Of a stretch of 11,593 nucleotides of DNA, positions 1-11,432 are shown piece by piece. The DNA comes from Nitrososphaerales archaeon TH526 (GTDB lineage Archaea; Thermoproteota; Nitrososphaeria; Nitrososphaerales; Nitrososphaeraceae), in NCBI GenBank assembly GCA_014523665.1, contig JAATVR010000282.1, forward strand, positions 1-11,593. Direction: 5' to 3'. Under the pieces are notes generated by a model. The model was not told the origin of the DNA, made no database searches, and saw nothing but the letters and a program-made list of their open reading frames with translations. The translations under genes were made by a program, and so were the position numbers. How positions within the stretch are numbered: the first letter of the stretch is position 1; every line of letters begins with the position of its first letter.

Positions 1-277
1 CAATAACTCTATGTCCTGCGTTCTGTAAAATGGGAATTACTTTGCTCCATGAAGATCCGTCGGCGAACATACCATGGACTAGAACGATATTCGTCTTGGT
101 GGTGGCATTTGTTGCTGTTGTCATGCCCTGTGAAGCCTCAGGTTCCATCAAAGTATTACTATTGTTCTCTGTGCTAGCGAAGCCAGAACGTGGAGTTAAA
201 GTAAAGCTAGCAATAAGCGTTATAGTCAAGAACAGCAAGAGTACAAAGCTTACCCTTTGATCACGTCTTCTTCCCAT
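1..277 (-). CDS. Exported alpha/beta hydrolase, N-terminal part (3' end outside window)
   Basis: The gene reads leftward from an ATG at 277 and leaves the window after 92 codons. Residues 1-35 are a signal sequence: MGRRRDQR, then a hydrophobic stretch (VSFVLLLFLTITLIASF). A polar Asn/Thr-rich linker follows, and then NIVLVHGMFADGSSW at about residues 64-78. In alpha/beta hydrolases this is the first strand, with the HG oxyanion-hole motif and a following DGSSW turn; the nucleophile elbow and the rest of the triad would lie beyond the window edge. The family includes esterases and related hydrolases acting on small molecules, and no substrate can be inferred here. The signal sequence suggests it works outside the membrane. 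It is probably a host gene flanking the mobile block. A TATA-like box lies 24-34 bases upstream, which supports this start. The plus-strand reading frame over the same bases is a shadow. Confidence 0.82.
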   Translation of the reverse strand, partial: MGRRRDQRVSFVLLLFLTITLIASFTLTPRSGFASTENNSNTLMEPEASQGMTTATNATTKTNIVLVHGMFADGSSWSKVIPILQNAGHRVI

Positions 278-311: not shown

Positions 312-489
312 GATGACGCTGAAATTATATGAAATAAGCCGCCAGCTATATGATATTCACAAACTTCTTCGTAAAAACAAGAGAATTTAAGGGTAACATG
401 CCCGTCCTTAGGGCGTTTCCATTCTCTGTTAAATTACAGTGTGACAGTCTCGTGAGTCATAGCGGTGTAACACTTTTATTCCTATACTA

Positions 490-515
490 CTGTAAAACCC
501 CTGTATTTTTACAGG
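490..515 (-). terminator. Overlapping inverted repeats, possible terminator
   Basis: Two perfect inverted repeats overlap. CCTGTA at 500-505 pairs with TACAGG at 510-515 across a 4-base loop. CTGTAAAA at 490-497 pairs with TTTTACAG at 507-514. Read on the minus strand, the short hairpin is followed by GGTTTT, so it could terminate leftward transcription from the secreted-protein gene. It could equally be a protein-binding palindrome. The two folds exclude each other. Confidence 0.3.
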
Positions 516-621
516 TATCACAAACATATTCTGTTGAAGGAACTGCAAGTCATATACAGAAGGATATGGCTATTTAGTAACCAGTATTTCAGCGTCCGAT
601 GATTTCATGATACTGCATCAT

Positions 622-1170
622 CTATGAAAGCAATGTGCACACTACATTCCCTGTAAGAGTTCCTTCTGTATTCGGATCTCTATAAGTGATTCTTACACCG
701 TCTCCACAATCCCCACTCAGTATCATCGGAGCAGGCAACTGGTTGCCCTGATCATCCGGACAAACAGGTTGATTTGTGCCGCTTAAAGTATAGGTGTTTC
801 CATCTGTAGTTCCATCTGTAAGTACACCTGGTATAAGGAAATTCGAGGTGAAGAGGAGATAAGATCCGTTCACTATTTCGCCACCACCCACTATTTCACT
901 ACCTACCGCTTGGAAGTCTATAGAAATCTCACCAGGTGGCACCTCTGTGTTACACACAAATGTTTCGCTACTCCCTGTTCCAGTGCCTCTAATGGCAAAG
1001 CCAGTTGGTGTGTCACGTAAGCACAAGCCATTACTTGCTTCATCTGCGATCGAACCGGGTGTACAACCCCTAGAGGCTACTCCCTGCTGTGGCAAAGAGA
1101 TTGTTTCCATGACAACTCCTAATACAAGTATGGCAACGATCAACATTGTCGCAAGCGTCGTTTCTGACAT
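622..1170 (-). CDS. Secreted six-cysteine protein, hypothetical (182 aa)
   Basis: I do not recognise a family. Residues 1-24 form a hydrophobic N-terminal segment (TLATMLIVAILVLGVVM), a signal peptide or membrane anchor with an almost uncharged start. The rest is a Gly/Thr/Ser-rich, beta-prone domain typical of an exported protein. The mature part has six cysteines (36, 50, 73, 137, 155, 178), enough for three disulfides. The first pair sits in CTPG...NGLCLR, which resembles the C-terminal CLPG...GNLCIR of the secreted protein at 8948-9646. The ATG at 1170 is kept because the signal begins there and an AT-rich box (AAATAAATC on minus, about 1197-1205) lies 27-35 bases before it. It is the left-most gene I would place in the element, but it could also be host sequence next to it. 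Confidence 0.62.
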   Translation of the reverse strand: MSETTLATMLIVAILVLGVVMETISLPQQGVASRGCTPGSIADEASNGLCLRDTPTGFAIRGTGTGSSETFVCNTEVPPGEISIDFQAVGSEIVGGGEIVNGSYLLFTSNFLIPGVLTDGTTDGNTYTLSGTNQPVCPDDQGNQLPAPMILSGDCGDGVRITYRDPNTEGTLTGNVVCTLLS

Positions 1171-1361
1171 TTGTTATGATTTAGAACTATAGATTGATTT
1201 ATTTGAATTCGATGGCTTTTCCAAACTACTTAAATCTGTTTTATCTTCTATGTTTATATGATCTCTGCCGGTTCTGAATTTCGATTACTTCATTGTTTTG
1301 TGGTATCAGTGGATAACTACTTATAATATTTTCAATAGTTCTATAGACTTAACTTTTTCAT

Positions 1362-1400
1362 TCAATGTCAAAATTTCAAAGACAACCTAAAACACTGCAT
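1362..1400 (-). pseudogene. Scar of a third terminase large-subunit 3' end
   Basis: Reading leftward from 1400 the codons give MQCFRLSLKF, then TGA, then His and a second TGA. The terminase scar ending at 1824 ends MDAFRLSQKFWH-stop. The two agree at Met, Phe, Arg, Leu, Ser, Lys, Phe and His in the same register, with the Trp codon TGG turned into TGA. The run of matched positions plus the shared stop makes chance unlikely, although the piece is very short. Upstream codons in the same frame show no clear terminase similarity. It may be a gene remnant or a copy of an attachment-site sequence derived from a terminase 3' end. Confidence 0.55.
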
Positions 1401-1479
1401 TTGGGTCTTCGTCCTACCATCAGCCAAACTCTCCATGCGATCGTAAACGTGAAAGCGGTTCAGTTGTCGGTCTAACTAA

Positions 1480-1521
1480 CTAATGCCAGAACTGCAACGA
1501 CAGCCTGGTTCCCAATCCATC
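1480..1521 (-). pseudogene. Scar of a second terminase large-subunit 3' end
   Basis: On the minus strand the frame reads DGLGTRLSLQFWH followed by TAG. RLSxxFWH-stop matches the end of the terminase scar at 1824 (RLSQKFWH-stop), and the intact TerL has RLSLCNY at the same place. The DNA agrees as well: AGG, TCG, TGG and CAT codons are shared with the 1824 scar. The fragment begins immediately after, and in the same frame as, the stop codon of the 82-residue gene at 1522-1770. Only about 13 codons are left, so it is a scar and not a functional gene. Confidence 0.5.
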
Positions 1522-1770
1522 TCATCCTATCATCATTTCAACATCCCTCAGAGTGTTGTGTATTGCATAAGCCATCGCTCTATGATATACGGCTTCGATG
1601 AGATCTTTTCGGTCACCATATACTTCTGCTAACGCCACTTCTCTATCAAAGTCACGGATTAAAACATCTTTTAGTTTGTTCCCGGCCCTTCTAAAGTCTT
1701 CGTCTAGTTCGTAACCGAGTTTTCTGCTAAGATCGAGTAGTATCTTTTCTCTCTCAGATGGACTTGACAT
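1522..1770 (-). CDS. Small hypothetical protein (82 aa), helical
   Basis: I do not recognise the family. The protein is strongly charged, has no cysteine, and appears all-helical (SEREKILLDLSRKLGYEL, then DVLIRDFDREVALAEVYGDR and a C-terminal amphipathic helix), so it is probably a small cytoplasmic protein. The ATG at 1770 is well supported. A TATA-like palindrome TAAATATTTA lies 23-32 bases upstream, and the sequence directly before the ATG is an inverted repeat. The gene stands between two terminase 3'-end scars (1480-1521 and 1824-1986). Its TGA is followed in frame by the DGLGTRLSLQFWH scar. It could be surviving cargo of an earlier element, or a decayed fusion. Having its own promoter argues for real expression. 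Confidence 0.55.
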   Translation of the reverse strand: MSSPSEREKILLDLSRKLGYELDEDFRRAGNKLKDVLIRDFDREVALAEVYGDRKDLIEAVYHRAMAYAIHNTLRDVEMMIG

Positions 1771-1783
1771 GTGGAATCTCCAC
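1771..1783 (-). promoter_or_regulatory. Perfect inverted repeat abutting a start codon
   Basis: GTGGA at 1771-1775 and TCCAC at 1779-1783 are exact inverted repeats around a 3-base spacer, touching the ATG at 1770. In a short-leader transcript this would sit at or around the transcription start, so it could be a repressor operator or an RNA hairpin hiding the start codon. There is no independent support. Confidence 0.3.
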
Positions 1784-1792
1784 TTTACTTGT

Positions 1793-1802
1793 TAAATATT
1801 TA
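1793..1802 (-). promoter_or_regulatory. TATA-like box of the 82-residue gene
   Basis: The self-complementary TAAATATTTA lies 23-32 bases before the ATG at 1770, the same spacing seen for the integrase and the flavoprotein gene. It implies transcription starting within a few bases of the ATG. Confidence 0.45.
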
Positions 1803-1823
1803 GACGTTTGTTGTTGACATCCA

Positions 1824-1986
1824 TCAATGCCAAAACTTCTGCGATAACCTGAAAGCATCCATGAGGTCATCATGACTAGTTGCTTCCTTGTCTAGATAAC
1901 CATTACCATTCTCTACAGCAGTACGAAGGGCTGCGATTAGTTTGTTAAATCTTGGATGCCTGTCCTTTATAGTACTCGAGCATCTC
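1824..1986 (-). pseudogene. Degraded C-terminal end of a divergent large terminase (TerL)
   Basis: The last 37 or so residues of this frame (LIAALRTA...LDKEATSHDDLMDAFRLSQKFW) align without gaps to residues 443-479 of the intact TerL next door (LIVSLRTA...LDKQQTSHHDTLDSLRLSLCNY). By eye 17 of 37 are identical, including the final nuclease-domain Asp. Above about position 1958 the similarity leaves this frame. A neighbouring frame at about 1986-1950 gives EMLEYY, matching TerL REMLQW. From that point to LIAALRTA the distance is 46 bases against 69 in TerL, so roughly 23 bases were lost and the frame was broken. The open frame starting at 2066 is therefore not a real gene start. The copy is too different to be a recent duplicate of the intact TerL and probably came from another related element. 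Confidence 0.78.
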
Positions 1987-2085
1987 CTAACAGTGAGGAG
2001 ACATGTTCTCATGCTATTTGCTGAAATAAACATGGATGAACAAATATCCACCTTTCCAGAAACCATGGATTAAACACTGCCATAA

Positions 2086-3546
2086 TCAAGGATTGTATTT
2101 TGGAAGTTCATAGTTGCATAACGAGAGCCTCAGTGAATCAAGTGTGTCATGATGTGATGTCTGCTGCTTATCTAGTTTCCACTCGTCTGATACTGTTGCT
2201 GTTCTAAGAGATACTATGAGATCATGCAGTGATAAATGTATTTTGACGAATCTTTTCGACATAAGCGTATACGTCCACTGCAGCATCTCTCTGTGTCTTT
2301 TCTGAAAGTTGACAGGGATTATCTGCCAACTGTTACTGGTGCGTAAACCCCAGATCTGTTCTTCTGTTAGTCTTCCGTAATGGTCATGGTATTCCCCAAT
2401 TCTTGCCTTCAATTCTCTTATCACTTCTGGATTTGCACCATCTACGTAAATCTTGGTTATGTGATGCTTCTGCTTTAGTTGCATGATATGGTTGATAATG
2501 CAATTCATCTGTGGCTTCTCAAAACTTTCAGCATAGAACGTCTCTATCTTTCTATTTCTGAATTGGGTAATGACGATAGCAAACTTTGACGTGTCTCCCC
2601 ATGCTACATCTATACCCATGCTTCTTCCAATCATCATGCTCGTGGACCAGTTCATCATTTCCTGTCCTTCATGCTGCGTGCATATTGCTGCTTCTATGTC
2701 TAGCGTATGAAACACATTGCCAACCTTGCCCAAATATTTCAGGTTGTACTCTCTTTCAAAACTAGGTGACGCCTTGGCTTTCTCTATTTCTACTTCTGTG
2801 TATATCTTGCCTAGTCCGTATGCGTAGTCGAGGAATAATCGTTTGTATAGGCATGTTCCTTCCGGTTCCCGTTCAATCTTCTCAAAGAGACCTTCTGGTG
2901 CATTAGGTGTTGAGACCATTACGATCCATGGACTGCTCTTTGCAATGTATCTCTCGGAAACGTGTCTAGAGTCTTGTTGCTGTCCCGGGGGAAAGAAGTC
3001 TGCCTCATCCAAATAGACGAATGAAACGTTTGTTAGGCCTCTCATTGAATCTAAGTGGTGACTAGGATATGCCTCAATGTGAACACCGTTTAACTCGATA
3101 ACTGTTTCTTTGGTGTTAAACCTAGAAATTTTTTCTAAGTCTCTGAATAAGCCTTTTAGCCTATCGATAAGAGTAATGGCTAACTCTAAACGGGGCCCTG
3201 TTACAATGCACATCTGTGAATTCTCAACTTTATTAGTTGAAAGACAAAGCCATGCCATATACCGCAGCATGAATTCGGTAACGCCTAGGCCAGTTGCCTT
3301 TTTAATCCATACATGCTTATGTTGCTGCAGAGTATCAAACAGTATTTGCTCGTAGTCAAACAGGGGATATGTCTTGCCATCTTTCTGAGGTAGGCCTATA
3401 GCATGATTGAATGTGTTACTATTATACAGATGCTGCTGCCAGTTATAGAATGGCAAACCATTCAGTTGTTCAAACTGCTGTATGCTGCTGCTACCTAACT
3501 GTGATTCGTACTTGTCAAGTATTTTTGATAAGTTCTGCAACGTCAT
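2086..3546 (-). CDS. terL: Large terminase subunit, packaging ATPase-nuclease (TerL)
   Basis: Terminase large subunits drive viral DNA into a procapsid by ATP hydrolysis and cut the concatemer. All core motifs are visible. The P-loop is at about residues 83-91 (KATGLGVTE); it lacks the usual GK[ST] lysine, as in the deviant lambda gpA-type Walker A where the lysine stands at the front. Walker B is at 174-183 (VSFVYLDEAD), and the coupling motif at 211-219 (VSTPNAPEG). The C-terminal RNase H-like nuclease has acidic residues D313 (GIDVAWGD), D369 (IYVDG) and D467 (SHHDTLD). The length of 486 residues is complete for the family. The start at 3546 (ATG) has a TATA-like CTATATAC 33-40 bases upstream, so it may be transcribed separately as well as from the operon. 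The TerS-like gene lies upstream, separated by a small secreted-protein gene. No portal or capsid gene is present. The intact catalytic set suggests it still works. Confidence 0.88.
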   Translation of the reverse strand: MTLQNLSKILDKYESQLGSSSIQQFEQLNGLPFYNWQQHLYNSNTFNHAIGLPQKDGKTYPLFDYEQILFDTLQQHKHVWIKKATGLGVTEFMLRYMAWLCLSTNKVENSQMCIVTGPRLELAITLIDRLKGLFRDLEKISRFNTKETVIELNGVHIEAYPSHHLDSMRGLTNVSFVYLDEADFFPPGQQQDSRHVSERYIAKSSPWIVMVSTPNAPEGLFEKIEREPEGTCLYKRLFLDYAYGLGKIYTEVEIEKAKASPSFEREYNLKYLGKVGNVFHTLDIEAAICTQHEGQEMMNWSTSMMIGRSMGIDVAWGDTSKFAIVITQFRNRKIETFYAESFEKPQMNCIINHIMQLKQKHHITKIYVDGANPEVIRELKARIGEYHDHYGRLTEEQIWGLRTSNSWQIIPVNFQKRHREMLQWTYTLMSKRFVKIHLSLHDLIVSLRTATVSDEWKLDKQQTSHHDTLDSLRLSLCNYELPKYNP

Positions 3547-3858: not shown

Positions 3859-4332
3859 CTATGGTAAGTTAGCAGCCCCGTCCTCAGGAGATGTAGTATT
3901 ATTTGATTGCTCTATCAATACTTGGTTGTTTTGAGGCATTAATCCCCTGTTCCTATCTACAAATTGTACTGCTCTCTCAACGACAGTAGCATTGGATAGC
4001 AAATCAATTTTCATTGAATATGCTTGCATGGTAACAGAAATAGCTTGCAGCCTGTCTCTTTCATTTGAGTGTGGATTATTTGCAATGTCCCAAGTCCTGG
4101 TTAGTATTGCATTAAGCCCAATTAGGCAAGTCTCATATTCCAACGGTAATGTCTCGTTGATGTATTTGGATATGTTGGCCTTCGCTAACCGCTTAAGGTG
4201 TTGCAAATCCCTGTTGACGGTGCCCAGGCTAACTTGAAGTATGGAAGCAATCTGTGGTTGGCTGCGGCCTTCGCTACTCAGTTCCAAGACCTTATTTCTC
4301 CGCCATTGCAACCTTTCAACTTCGGTGCTCAA
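3859..4332 (-). CDS. Small terminase-like HTH protein (TerS-like)
   Basis: Residues 9-48 form a helix-turn-helix (VLELSSEGRSQPQIASILQV, then SLGTVNRDL as the recognition region), the N-terminal DNA-binding module typical of small terminase subunits and related regulators. The remaining hundred residues are helical, fitting an oligomerisation core (CLIGLNAILTRTWDIA, DRLQAISVTMQAYSMKIDLL). The tail from 130 is Asn/Gln-rich and disordered. Small terminases recognise the packaging site and hand DNA to TerL, and the position upstream of TerL in the same operon fits that role. The start is TTG at 4332, because TAA precedes it four codons upstream and no ATG is available. That TTG overlaps the TGA of the upstream frame (TTGA), suggesting translational coupling. 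A plain transcriptional regulator is the alternative. Confidence 0.68.
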   Translation of the reverse strand: MSTEVERLQWRRNKVLELSSEGRSQPQIASILQVSLGTVNRDLQHLKRLAKANISKYINETLPLEYETCLIGLNAILTRTWDIANNPHSNERDRLQAISVTMQAYSMKIDLLSNATVVERAVQFVDRNRGLMPQNNQVLIEQSNNTTSPEDGAANLP

Positions 4333-4732: not shown

Positions 4733-4782
4733 CCAAGGAGGGAGATTCTTCTCATGTCTCCTACTTCTTGGTTAGGGCTTTG

Positions 4783-4807
4783 GGTACGCTTGGTACGCAG
4801 GGTACGC
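4783..4807 (+). repeat. Iteron-like triplet GGTACGC, 9-base period
   Basis: Three exact heptamers GGTACGC start at 4783, 4792 and 4801, separated by two bases each (TT, AG). They lie in the short gap after the PrimPol-helicase stop codon, outside any confident gene. The same heptamer occurs four more times within 175 bases in the opposite orientation (4836-4842 and 4956-4982), and I saw no other exact copy in the window. Regular spacing near one helical turn suggests cooperative protein binding, as at plasmid iteron origins or multi-site operators. Confidence 0.65.
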
Positions 4808-4820
4808 TTTCTTAGAAGTG

Positions 4821-7475
4821 TCAGGAGAGGTCAATGCGTACCCTCTCTTCAATATTTGAAGGATCTGTGTCTTGTTTTGATATAGTTTCATCGTTCTTAC
4901 CATCATTTTCTGAATCTTTTACTTCAGTGTCAGTACTGCCCCTGACACCTCCAGGATGCGTACCATGCGTACCATGCGTACCCGTATTGTCTGACTTGGC
5001 AATATTCTCTTCTATTTTCACCTGGCTACTGAAATAAACTGCAGATACTTTCTCCAATGTATCCCTGTCAAAAGTCAATGTCCTCTTCGAGTGGACAACA
5101 TTGTACTTGGCCTTAAGTATGTCCTCCAATGCACTCGTTATCTGCCTTTGGGAGACGGTTCCAAACTCGGCCGTCTCAACCGACAATGGCTTTCCCGGTA
5201 TCTCAATAGAGTGGATATGCGACTTGAAGTGAGCCCAAATATCGCTGGTTTCAAGCGTTACTTTCTTTCCTGCATATGACATGTCCTCATAGCTCTTCTC
5301 TTGAATGATGTCTTTAATCAAGGTACAGAGGAATGCATGAAGTGAGTTGACCTTCAGTTCCCGTCTTTCGTTGACATAGTAGCTCATAACTTCGCATAAC
5401 TCTGGGAATGTTTTGGTATTCTGGAACAGCCTAAGTACTGGCTTGAAGAGCTGTTTTTCTCTGTTCTTGAGATTGATCTTGATGTTTGGAATCTTGTCTG
5501 CAATGTGAAGTAGGCGATAGCAGAATAAAGTATTCCTCCATTGCATTATTTCATCCAACAAATGCTGGAAGTATTCATCCCCTGCCGGATTGACAACTTC
5601 CATGATGTCTTCTGCAGGGTCTCCAACGACACATCTTAACTTGATCATTCTTTGAACAATCCCCTTCCCTCTAATCAGATCTGGTGTCTTCTCTGCAGAA
5701 TAGGCTTTGAAACAGTACGTGAAGAACTTGTATTGAGTGCGTCCTGTAGCACCGATGAAGATTTTAGTCACAGGATATCCAGTGGTATATCCGCTCTTAG
5801 CAATGTCCATTTTGTCTTTATCATCTTCAATGGAGTTGGCTTCATCCTCGCAGATGGTTCCAGCCCCTTCACTTCTCGAACCGAGGAACTGGTAGACATT
5901 GGCTGCACTAACTCCTACACTCATCATATTACGATAGGCGAGGTAGTGTATCACGACCAAGTTATTTGACTTTCCTGAATCATTGTCTCCAACAAACCAG
6001 AGATAATGGGTCATTCCCAAGATGTCCTGGAAGTATGTGAAGAGAGTATCTGCAGCACAGAGAGAGATGTGTTCTTTCTCTGCATCAATATACTTGTCCC
6101 ATATCTTCCCAGTCATGACGTACAATGCATCGAAGTCATAATGCTTGGCCATATCTAGAGAGTTATGAAACTGCTCTTCAGAATCAAAAGAATATGCGAT
6201 GTTGATGTATGCATCAGCAGAAGATGGTTTCAGGGTTGTTTTCTGTTCATCATCAAGTTGGATCTCCTTCTCCAACTTGATTTCATTGGTGGCAAGATTC
6301 ACGACAGCAAAGAATGATTTACCATCAATCAACAACGCTTCTGCTAGCCTGTTCTTGTCTTTGAAGACTTGAACATATTCGTACCTCTTCTTCTGATCCT
6401 TATCCTTGTTCTTCTTTGAGTTAGAGCCGGAATCGGAGTTCGAGTCAGAGTTAGAGTTGGAACCTGAAGAAGACTCATCCTCTGCTGCAGTTGCCTTACC
6501 TGATGTGAAGAAGTTTGTTGCACAAGTCCACTGTTTCTGAAACTGGCTTTCATCAAGGGGTGGAGAGCAATGAATCCTGTTCCACTGTCTACAGATGCTG
6601 ATAATCTGTTCCATCGGTAGAATGGCTCTGTTCCTTTTGATCATGGACTCCATCACTCGCATCAATACCCTATGGCGATTGTCACCTTCGTAGACGGTCG
6701 TTTCTTCCAGGAACAAATCATGCATGGAGACGTCGTCCCCATTACCATTACCATTGGTACTAACCAGTCCATACTTCTTTAGTATGTCATCCATATGTTG
6801 TTGCCAATCCCGTGTTTCAAACACACCTAGTACCGCAGGAGTGTATGTTCCAACGATGAGTCTCCTACCTGATTTCGCATGCATTCCAGGTGCGACATAC
6901 AGCAGGAACTTGGATGAAGCATGAACTTCAAAAGACGGTTTGGTTGTGACATCCATTCCAGGTTTGCCAATATCGCTGGTTTTATCCCTAAGTTTTTGCC
7001 CGATAGTGTAAACAAAGAAGTGCATCCTGCTCTTGTCATCATGCTGATCTACTAGGGTTTTCTGTGCAAAATCTGGAACTGTCAGTGTCTTGCCGTTCCT
7101 AGTAAGGAGCTCATCTGTTGCTATCTGGTTATCTGAATCTATCCCTGCAAGGTAGCATCCTTCCAAGTCTTCTCGATGCCATACCTTGCCAGCAATGACT
7201 CCCATCCCTTCATTGAACATACCTTCGTTCTTCCAGTGTTCATGTTGTGCCTCAGGTATTGGCGCATCCTGATACAAGTCCCATTTGCATCCCTTAGGAG
7301 GGACTTTTAACTTGCTAATAACAGGAATGACATTGACGCCAATGTAGTAATGCCAATAGTCAGCCCACGCATTAGAGTATTCCTTGTGTGCTATTTCTGA
7401 GCGATTACGTTTATCGATGCATTCCAATAAACTGTCTAGGTAGTATTGTGGAGTATGCTCCTTTGATAGCACCAC
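4821..7475 (-). CDS. PrimPol-helicase replication protein (884 aa)
   Basis: This is a fused primase and helicase, the type used by plasmids and viruses to start their own replication. The N-terminal part (about 35-215) resembles archaeo-eukaryotic PrimPol enzymes: the catalytic D113-x-D115 pair in LAGIDSDN, a middle basic motif near 147-153, and the conserved His185 in FEVHASSKFLL. Residues 265-325 look like a primase C-terminal helical module. A Ser/Asn/Asp linker (333-363) follows. The helicase core has Walker A G496-DNDSGKS and Walker B ICEDE (541-545), then an Arg-containing segment (RGKGIVQRM, 602-610). A winged-helix-like region (about 737-815) and a disordered tail with (Gly-Thr-His)3 end the protein. 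The start is GTG at 7475, the first of two, six bases after the TAA of the upstream zinc protein; the two genes share a reading frame. The stop at 4821-4823 precedes an iteron-like array. Confidence 0.85.
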   Translation of the reverse strand: MVLSKEHTPQYYLDSLLECIDKRNRSEIAHKEYSNAWADYWHYYIGVNVIPVISKLKVPPKGCKWDLYQDAPIPEAQHEHWKNEGMFNEGMGVIAGKVWHREDLEGCYLAGIDSDNQIATDELLTRNGKTLTVPDFAQKTLVDQHDDKSRMHFFVYTIGQKLRDKTSDIGKPGMDVTTKPSFEVHASSKFLLYVAPGMHAKSGRRLIVGTYTPAVLGVFETRDWQQHMDDILKKYGLVSTNGNGNGDDVSMHDLFLEETTVYEGDNRHRVLMRVMESMIKRNRAILPMEQIISICRQWNRIHCSPPLDESQFQKQWTCATNFFTSGKATAAEDESSSGSNSNSDSNSDSGSNSKKNKDKDQKKRYEYVQVFKDKNRLAEALLIDGKSFFAVVNLATNEIKLEKEIQLDDEQKTTLKPSSADAYINIAYSFDSEEQFHNSLDMAKHYDFDALYVMTGKIWDKYIDAEKEHISLCAADTLFTYFQDILGMTHYLWFVGDNDSGKSNNLVVIHYLAYRNMMSVGVSAANVYQFLGSRSEGAGTICEDEANSIEDDKDKMDIAKSGYTTGYPVTKIFIGATGRTQYKFFTYCFKAYSAEKTPDLIRGKGIVQRMIKLRCVVGDPAEDIMEVVNPAGDEYFQHLLDEIMQWRNTLFCYRLLHIADKIPNIKINLKNREKQLFKPVLRLFQNTKTFPELCEVMSYYVNERRELKVNSLHAFLCTLIKDIIQEKSYEDMSYAGKKVTLETSDIWAHFKSHIHSIEIPGKPLSVETAEFGTVSQRQITSALEDILKAKYNVVHSKRTLTFDRDTLEKVSAVYFSSQVKIEENIAKSDNTGTHGTHGTHPGGVRGSTDTEVKDSENDGKNDETISKQDTDPSNIEERVRIDLS
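4956..4982 (-). repeat. Inverted iteron-like triplet inside the PrimPol gene end, plus one lone copy
   Basis: Three perfect 9-base units (GGTACGCAT on the minus strand) are consecutive here, and encode Gly-Thr-His three times in the PrimPol-helicase tail (residues 832-840). A single further copy at 4834-4842 is read in another frame (as Val-Arg-Ile). Identity at DNA level in two reading frames and in non-coding DNA argues that the DNA sequence itself is selected. The two triplets point in opposite directions around the lone copy. Confidence 0.65.
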
Positions 7476-10053: not shown

Positions 10054-11412
10054 TTAATTATTCCTTCCTTTTCCCCCTTCCCATTCGCGGCTTTCTCTTT
10101 CCTTTTTAAAATAATCCCTCTTCTGCTCTGCAACGGCCCCTGCAAACCAATCTTGATAGTCTTGCTGGAGTTCATCTGCTGCTGCAGAATTTAATCTACT
10201 TAGCATTTTTTGTTGGAGTTCTTGCTTGCGCAAATATGGTAGTTCGTCCCCGATTGCTCTAATGCAGAATTTCAATTGGTCAATTTCCTTCTTCAACGAA
10301 CCCCAGTCTTCTGAATGTTGTGTCTGAAGTTGGGATATCTGTGTCTTCAATCGATGGTTCTCCTTGATGGTAAGCAGGTCTATCGCCTTCCGATATTCCA
10401 TCAATCTGTCTTCCTCAGTTGCTCTAACATACGAAGAATCCTGGCCAGGAAGTTTGTGGCCTGCAAGAAACTCGCGACACGAAAAATGGACACCGGCTCT
10501 GTCCAATTGGTTGATGTTCAGTTTGCGAAATCCATGCGTTCTCATTACGTGCCGACTATTATTCAGCAAGACTCCTGCCTCTTTCTCCGCGGCCATGATT
10601 ATGAGTTGCAATGCTCTAACCCCTATTGGCTTGGCAACTCTGGATGTAAATGGATTATCGATTGAAATCTTGTCCCTGATAAGTGGCGATGAATCCTTAA
10701 TCTCTTCGAAGAATCTTTTACGGTATGCCAAATAATCATCAATCGCATTCGCACACTCGGGTGTTGTGAAAACATAATAGCGGTCCTTTCTGGAATTGGC
10801 GTAAACATTGACAAGGTACAGGTTAAACTCTGATATCTTACGGATATCGCCGACTCTTAATCCAGGAATAGCTCCCACACGCATACCAGTGGAGACCATT
10901 AGCAATACGATGACCCTTTCACGTATGTCACACACTTCCAATATCTTTGCGACTTCGTCGATAGAATAGGGCCTATCCATGCCCCTGTAACTCTCGTTAT
11001 CTTCTGAAGGAAGGAATTTCTTGATTTTGCGCGTGTTCAGATACACGTCATTTATATCAAAAAAATGGAGTATGGCGAAGTAATGTCCCTGTATTGTCCA
11101 ATAATTTAGTTTTCGGATATCTCTCAGGTATTCCAGAAACGATATTATTTTGGACTCAATCACGTCATGTCTGTAATCAAGCAATATCCTCAGGTTGATA
11201 TTCTGCAGGTATCTAATGAATTCACTGAACGTCGATTTGTAGACCCTGGCGGTCTGCTTAGACCTTAACCCGTCGGTCACAGCGTAGATTCTTCTTTCTT
11301 CTGCTGTTGCCGTTACTGATGTTGCTACTGGTTGTTGTTGTCCTTTCTCTTGCTCTGCATTTGATGGTATGGAGGAATGCGGGTCGCTGCCGTTGGCAAG
11401 TCCATTGCCCAT
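10054..11412 (-). CDS. Tyrosine recombinase / integrase with C-terminal coiled coil
   Basis: It catalyses site-specific strand exchange through a covalent phosphotyrosine and should integrate and excise the element. Counting from the ATG at 11412, the core-binding domain spans about 40-140 (SKQTARVYKSTFSEFIRYLQ). The catalytic domain runs from 145 to 345, with Arg178 in STGMRVGAIPGL, Lys209 in ANSRKDRYYVF, His293-xx-Arg296 in THGFRK, His319 in LAGHK and the nucleophile Tyr328 in QDSSYVRAT. A 40-residue low-complexity N-terminus precedes it. A charged coiled coil (350-397) plus a basic tail follow, making it longer than minimal integrases. A GTG three codons upstream (11421) is possible, but a TATA-like box lies 21-29 bases before the ATG. 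It is divergent to the flavoprotein gene with only 75 bases between starts. All catalytic residues are present, so it is likely active. Confidence 0.85.
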   Translation of the reverse strand: MGNGLANGSDPHSSIPSNAEQEKGQQQPVATSVTATAEERRIYAVTDGLRSKQTARVYKSTFSEFIRYLQNINLRILLDYRHDVIESKIISFLEYLRDIRKLNYWTIQGHYFAILHFFDINDVYLNTRKIKKFLPSEDNESYRGMDRPYSIDEVAKILEVCDIRERVIVLLMVSTGMRVGAIPGLRVGDIRKISEFNLYLVNVYANSRKDRYYVFTTPECANAIDDYLAYRKRFFEEIKDSSPLIRDKISIDNPFTSRVAKPIGVRALQLIIMAAEKEAGVLLNNSRHVMRTHGFRKLNINQLDRAGVHFSCREFLAGHKLPGQDSSYVRATEEDRLMEYRKAIDLLTIKENHRLKTQISQLQTQHSEDWGSLKKEIDQLKFCIRAIGDELPYLRKQELQQKMLSRLNSAAADELQQDYQDWFAGAVAEQKRDYFKKERESREWEGGKGRNN

Positions 11413-11432
11413 AGATAACACATCATGACCAG

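Follow-up and report, generated by a model that had tools for sequence, protein, structure and literature searches.

The question raised by the window, i.e. the 11,593 bp of contig C129 (JAATVR010000282.1) in the 4.9-Mb, 833-contig draft genome of Nitrososphaerales archaeon TH526, is why three remnants of the 3' end of a terminase large subunit (TerL) gene, here referred to as scars, lie in a row behind an intact TerL-like gene. We report that the scars, on balance, are likely to be the junctions of a gene-cassette array in which each junction is a TerL tip. For the TH526 genome the listed completeness is 96.6% and the listed contamination 5.26%, and all the genomes of the genus that were analysed are drafts. 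The four features at issue are, in window positions:

2086..3546, minus strand: intact TerL-like gene, 486 amino acids (aa), with an ATPase half and a type-A nuclease half (PHROG terminase large subunit, E=1.6e-22)
1824..2000, minus strand: scar 1, an orphan type-B TerL tail (residues 432-486 of the type-B TerL P0118) behind the type-A TerL, stop at 1824
1480..1507, minus strand: scar 2, TerL tip RLSLQFWH-stop (tip model and 27-nt pattern)
1362..1391, minus strand: scar 3, a degraded TerL tip whose 3' flank is common to tail G000:C300:4179 (tip and flank alignment)

Judged by sequence comparison, all three scars are confirmed as real, scar 3 being the weakest, which bears out the initial annotation where three terminase endings had been noted behind the intact TerL. 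Scar 1 aligns with the window TerL over 39 residues at 46% identity (E=9e-7), close to the 37 alignable and 17 identical residues that had been counted, and it matches residues 432-486 of P0118 at 62%; upstream of it a weaker, frame-broken TerL similarity can be followed by eye. Scar 2 was recovered with a tip model for which 60 tails, none of them from the window, served as training set (the scan covered 104 loci and 800 kb, the loci being mostly picked for TerL or tail matches) at 19.1 bits and E=6.6e-4 in 800 kb, where the reversed sequence gave 0 hits at ≥9 bits. It is also an exact fit to a 27-nt pattern for R-L-S-L-x-F-W-H-stop, which was composed with tips, scar 2 among them, in view. 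Scar 2 happens to have GTTAGAC directly after it, and no GTTRRRY consensus was found after the tips. For scar 3, the tip alone, at 1366-1391, reaches 5.8 bits (E=9), which is not significant across 800 kb, with 12 hits at ≥5 bits in the reversed sequence; the last 20 bases of the tip together with 47 bp of 3' flank align to G000:C300:4179 with a score of 69, compared to 27 for the best of 1000 single-base shuffles. Measured against chance, a comparison on which the initial annotation had staked the two shorter endings, scar 2 thus stands by itself and scar 3 only together with its flank. As had also been claimed, the scars resemble one another more than they do the window TerL: all three are type-B ends (FRLSLxFWH-stop), whereas the window TerL has the type-A end (NYELPKYNP-stop).

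The scars belong to a large set. The type-B tail gave 82 protein matches in the TH526 genome, of which 7 lie within open frames at least 300 aa long. A 14-row profile, in which type-A and intact ends are included, gave 100 matches (102 of the 218 candidates of this genome were scored, so the count may be low), and the strict 27-nt pattern occurs 30 times; these three counts are genome-wide, and densities from the 104-locus set are not. Family-wide, a profile match is present in 30 of 70 genomes, with 100, 40, 20, 12 and 10 matches in the five genomes of the genus and 15 and 14 in two genomes of another genus. The 27-nt pattern is present in five of the 70 genomes, and its reversed version has 0 occurrences in all 70 genomes searched. 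TerL records with an organism name (n=2) and the 22 named tail loci are mostly from Nitrososphaeraceae or Nitrososphaerales (21 of the 22 tail loci carry one of these labels, the remaining one being labelled Thaumarchaeota).

Whole TerL (query P0118) matches 151 places in the TH526 genome, compared to five, itself included, for the large protein encoded in the same element of the window (see below), and hence TerL, above all its end, has been amplified rather than the whole element. Among 150 listed fragments of the 151, coverage along TerL is 15 at residue 1 and has climbed to 76 by residue 466; 74 fragments extend at least as far as residue 478, and 15 begin no later than residue 3. Many of these tails are decayed TerL copies with stops. 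A fixed 3' end with a variable 5' end, coverage rising to the 3' end and A-runs after some stops are features that would be left if reverse transcripts of TerL messages were inserted from the 3' end and truncated at the 5' end, in the manner of a retroelement of the type without long terminal repeats (non-LTR). RVT_1 at E≤0.001 was, however, found in 0 of 5 genus genomes (drafts), compared to 3 of 14 control genomes; retro-insertion is therefore disfavoured, and we regard RNA-mediated insertion as highly improbable.

When the tails are aligned on the stop codon, their right edge is sharp and their left edge varies between copies. For the 112 tips with His or Tyr as the last codon, the information content is near background past base +3, save for a weak T at +4. 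In the 104 loci the tip model scored 159 tips at ≥9 bits (the 60 training tails included), and none in the reversed sequence. Neighbouring tips lie mostly on the same strand (88 of 97 pairs, with 9 on opposite strands), and G003:C55 has nine tips on one strand within 7.4 kb. Consecutive same-strand tips enclose 82 stretches of 150-3000 bp, 70 of which are less than 45% TerL; in these 70, the longest open reading frame of at least 40 aa runs along the tips in 34 and against them in 31, with none in 5, where short frames may not be genes. In genus g6 (loci L194-L211) there are TerL tails with other ends (such as LKGYxI-stop), several of them orphan, and also in same-strand rows. At L093 (G000:C752, ~2168-3250) two tails lie on opposite strands, and their upstream DNA forms a ~650-bp inverted duplicate, identical in translation, possibly an assembly palindrome.

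Gene-cassette arrays are known from integrons. Integrons, including archaeal integrons, have gene cassettes that shuffle at a repeated junction, as described in the sections of Ghaly et al. (2022, PMC9668308) drawn on here; a word search of its main text gave Thermoproteota three times and nothing that starts with Nitroso. Small genes in rows, a junction repeated in one direction and tandem single-gene cassettes with a shared end site are common to integrons and the present arrays. A difference is that the junction here is the end of a protein gene. Over 42 nt, the tips showed no more folding than their dinucleotide shuffles (mean z -0.05 for 177 tips, and -0.14 for the upstream control), though attC sites, which are folded single strands with a GTTRRRY end, are longer than 42 nt. 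None of the five genus genomes has a match over cut-off to the integron integrase model TIGR02249, and generic recombinase matches occur in 4 of the 5 and in 14 of 14 controls. Integron cassette genes mostly have one direction, in contrast to the 34 along and 31 against given above. With no IntI over cut-off, no excess hairpin in 42 nt, no Rfam match (over window positions 1200-2300) and genes both ways, a canonical integron was rejected.

That the tips bound moving units is seen most directly around scar 2:

1470..1813, minus strand: mobile block of the 82-aa gene and the scar-2 tip, 94% identity over 344 columns to G000:C119, flanks differ
1522..1770, minus strand: 82-aa cargo gene of the block, no Pfam match

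In C119 the gene again lies between two tips, and the DNA outside the block does not align with the window. Related gene blocks with the same end point are present in C740 and G003:C88, and also in C253 (no tip scored there). A SnoaL-type gene is likewise found repeatedly in the TH526 genome and in genus mates, followed by a tip and in many cases also preceded by one, and six of the ten array genes scanned in G003:C55 match Pfam families (RibD_C, ABM, DoxX, Abhydrolase_6, DUF1326 and SnoaL_2). As a separate observation, the DUF1326 and hydrolase array genes at L166 (6699-7331 and 5662-6504) recur widely in the genus, mostly at 68-87% identity. Alignments that span a tip together with 60 bp or more of its upstream DNA number 35, 33 of which had room to continue (two were set aside for lack of it). 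Of the 33, 27 end between -10 and +15 bp from the stop codon of the tip, and 0 at 15-120 bp. This count takes locus pairs in both directions, hence we also give the 27 as 16 distinct tips. An earlier block-end statistic (both ends at tips in 53 of 601, shift control mean 1.4) was discarded as biased by tip masking.

These blocks bear on the first possibility raised in the initial annotation, a hotspot where related elements replaced one another and left fossils. Taken alone, it would mean that elements carrying TerL at the right edge were inserted, decayed and left their last codons, with no moving unit. The stops in many tails, and the position of TerL directly ahead of the array in the window, would fit such fossils, and the part of this reading that holds is that many tails are decayed TerL copies. 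The recurrence of one block of gene and tip at different loci with different flanks does not fit, nor do the tip-bounded inserts that separate otherwise matching loci (below), and fossils alone, a reading already disfavoured, make a quite unlikely explanation.

The main rival is homologous recombination between dispersed TerL 3' ends, where decayed copies would serve as repeats and a crossover would swap the flanks and add or drop the DNA between. Similar direct repeats would account for gain and loss on the same strand with no special enzyme needed, the tips are matched over at least 60 bp in 11 of the 27 junction alignments, and since the tails are alike, alignments would reach the stop wherever the crossover fell. 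The other 16 of the 27 junctions are, however, on tips matched over 17-34 nt, short and divergent for such a process. Homologous recombination also leaves unexplained why TerL stops abut unrelated DNA initially, and why ends outnumber starts (74 vs 15 of 150 fragments). Weighing these points, we think that it has a limited but appreciable chance of being right.

Two pairs of filled and empty sites were found; a search for empty sites covered the flanks of 110 of 117 tails, compared with the 104 loci. In C345 and C543 the tail runs straight into the downstream gene, where C142 has an intervening ~1,040 bp that includes two more tips (33 and 8 bits). The other pair is from a different genus and has a different tip sequence (LKGYxI-stop): a site that is contiguous in L210 carries an extra ~725 bp in L200, again with two more tips. 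Units, their ends at tips, same-strand rows and both pairs are thus present in the assembled sequences. The cassette, as we picture it, would typically consist of one small gene in either direction and the last ~20 to several hundred bp of TerL to the stop codon; it would be gained or lost between two tips in direct orientation, and repeated insertion behind a TerL gene would produce a row of tips. We infer that cassettes are exchanged by dedicated cutting and joining at the tip, as opposed to general recombination. Taken as a whole, the initial interpretation is partly supported. Its second possibility, in which the short 3' end of the gene serves for recombination and a copy stays behind at every insertion, fared best, as blocks are found again beside unrelated flanks, most of them ending at the tip, and as filled and empty sites differ by tip-bounded inserts in two genera. 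What it did not foresee is that the units are mostly single small genes, not whole related elements, and that there are at least 82 ends in the genome.

The third possibility, orphan C-terminal cassettes that swap the nuclease end, occurs as well. TerL proteins of the group have a common N-terminal ATPase half and differing nuclease halves, e.g. P0097 is almost as the window TerL over its first 80 residues and has the end FRLSLQFWH. One clear case of a displaced old C-terminal domain directly downstream of the new one is C276, where the type-A nuclease stop is followed, after ~30 bp, by the type-B nuclease from residue 311 of the G003:C315 TerL; leaving out the type-A part, the flanks align across the intact type-B G003:C315 TerL at 67-68%. 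Scar 1 is the window's case of such swapping. Type-A elements such as this one would retain the type-B tip after the swapped nuclease because it is the end signal of the element. Swapping seen at C276 and P0097 leaves the tips beside unrelated genes unexplained. The orphan C-terminal tips of Rhs and polymorphic-toxin genes, where a new C-terminal domain displaces the old, which stays downstream, resemble the displaced ends in C276 and scar 1; here, in contrast, the protein is a terminase and only a minority of the tips follow an intact TerL gene. By eye, the window TerL, P0097, P0101 and P0113 share the ATPase half and have at least four C-terminal ends, which suggests that the nuclease half is often exchanged.

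Several observations weigh against a cassette array joined at TerL tips. Six of the 33 block alignments run beyond the tip, and because the tails are alike, the block-end alignments alone do not place the cut. In 58 of the 117 tails, the downstream 800 bp shares protein-level similarity with the downstream DNA of another tail; we read this as recurring cassettes together with duplicated loci, either of which would give it. No fixed left end common to the TerL copies was found. The serine codons in the tips are both AGY and TCN, a synonymous variation that is odd for a strict DNA site. Among 20 listed type-A ends, 18 have at least 500 bp behind them, and a further tip follows within 1.3 kb in 12 of the 18 (one is probably the next type-A end) and is missing in 6. 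A same-strand tip within 500 bp upstream of integrase-like matches was found in 0 of 24 loci (27 scanned; the sequence available upstream is short in some). These data, which are static draft genomes, contain neither a circular cassette nor an excision product, and the contigs are too short to show whole arrays. Assembly error is unlikely to be the sole cause, given that several genomes deposited separately, and a contig of 65 kb, show the same pattern.

If cassettes are exchanged at the tip, the question becomes which enzyme would cut there, and three further genes of the window come into play:

3859..4332, minus strand: helix-turn-helix (HTH) gene upstream of TerL, like a terminase small subunit (TerS) by position (Sigma70_r4_2 over cut-off, HTH_23 below)
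4821..7475, minus strand: large protein of the same element, without a Pfam or PHROG family match
10054..11421, minus strand: tyrosine recombinase (PF00589), no tip adjoining

On the minus strand the order is tyrosine recombinase, large protein, HTH gene, intact TerL and then the scars. An HTH gene adjoins TerL also in C142, C530, C169, C343, C297, C166 and others, and L158 (G003:C315, 2249-7850) has two intact HTH-TerL pairs, both type B, in tandem and 3.7 kb apart. Terminases cut DNA at defined sites, which makes it plausible that a TerS/TerL-like pair might treat the tip as a terminase treats its cos or pac site, and cut there. This pair is the best candidate for the enzyme because the junction is TerL's own end and the tip follows the local TerL sequence in two genera, and because TerL is, by its coding sequence, under strong purifying selection (dN 0.12 and dS 2.08 between the window TerL and the C149 copy) and no virion gene was present among 20 proteins checked nearby. 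The latter refers to Caudoviricetes capsid, portal and tail genes, found for 0 of 10 window proteins and 0 of 10 chosen proteins from three other TerL contigs, a partial check on draft contigs. No sequence relative of TerL was found in the PDB at E≤0.01. We consider TerL as the enzyme to be a possibility somewhat short of an even chance, and the tyrosine recombinase in that role to be unlikely.

The element's tyrosine recombinase might also use the TerL tip as its attachment site, which would lead to tandem accretion. This would explain direct repeats and arrays in one direction, the gene is at hand in the window element, and 29 places in the genome match it, itself included. An integrated element would have a tip upstream, where none was found in the 24 integrase-like loci above, and for this reason an integrase attachment site at the tip was rejected; 24 of the 29 matches are, moreover, only 27-45% identical. 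Tandem accretion of this kind is consequently improbable in our view.

Phage satellites that carry the cos or pac site of their helper are also small units marked by a terminase-related site; here, the site is the coding end of TerL. The integrated thaumarchaeal element NitKor-E1 has TerS and TerL and no other head-tail virus gene, their function being called enigmatic in the part of Krupovic et al. (2019, PMC6563490) drawn on here. The window element likewise has a TerS/TerL-like pair, with no other virus gene among the proteins checked. It differs in that a single genome has TerL or pieces of it at 151 places and that cassettes end in the 3' tip. The same paper also mentions tandem arrays in which tyrosine-recombinase elements share one attachment site; these are comparable in their direct repeats and one-direction accretion; in our case no tip lies beside integrase-like genes and the units are gene-sized. 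No title or abstract reporting terminase tips as cassette junctions was found among open-licence papers.

The remaining features of the window lie downstream of scar 3:

622..1170, minus strand: small gene whose product starts with a hydrophobic N-terminal stretch and matches neither Pfam nor PHROG
486..584, minus strand: internal TerL fragment (P0118 residues 392-424, one stop; E=2.2e-6)
2..277, minus strand: start of a hydrolase-like gene, 84% over 85 bp to a gene kind in the G003:C55 cassette array (the array copy is Abhydrolase_6)

The small gene is probably cargo. The fragment at 486-584 is from the nuclease part of TerL, tipless and ~1.5 kb from the TerL gene. For the large protein a role in replication is inferred, and its C169 relative matches a primase PHROG (E=8e-6). 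A 31-nt inverted repeat (87%; 4782-4812 and 4953-4983) rich in GGTACGC-type motifs lies around the 3' end of its gene. There is no tRNA gene in the window, and a tRNA insertion site is thus not supported.

Nitrososphaeraceae is a family whose members oxidise ammonia in soils, and in it small genes appear to move as units bounded by TerL tips, integron-like without known integron parts. It is a tentative, rather doubtful proposal that a TerS/TerL pair is the engine of this gene-cassette platform, cutting the 3' tip of its own gene so that tip-carrying accessory genes are released and rejoined, a packaging enzyme doing the work of an integron integrase. If the cassette reading is right, the terminase pair of an element lacking other virus genes, unexplained in the part of the NitKor-E1 paper drawn on above, would have a possible role, and the arrays would represent a second, unrelated way to build rows of accessory genes, in archaea, joined by the end of a terminase gene. 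This would give the family a route for the accessory genes of these arrays, i.e. SnoaL, RibD_C, ABM, DoxX, DUF1326, hydrolase and SDR.

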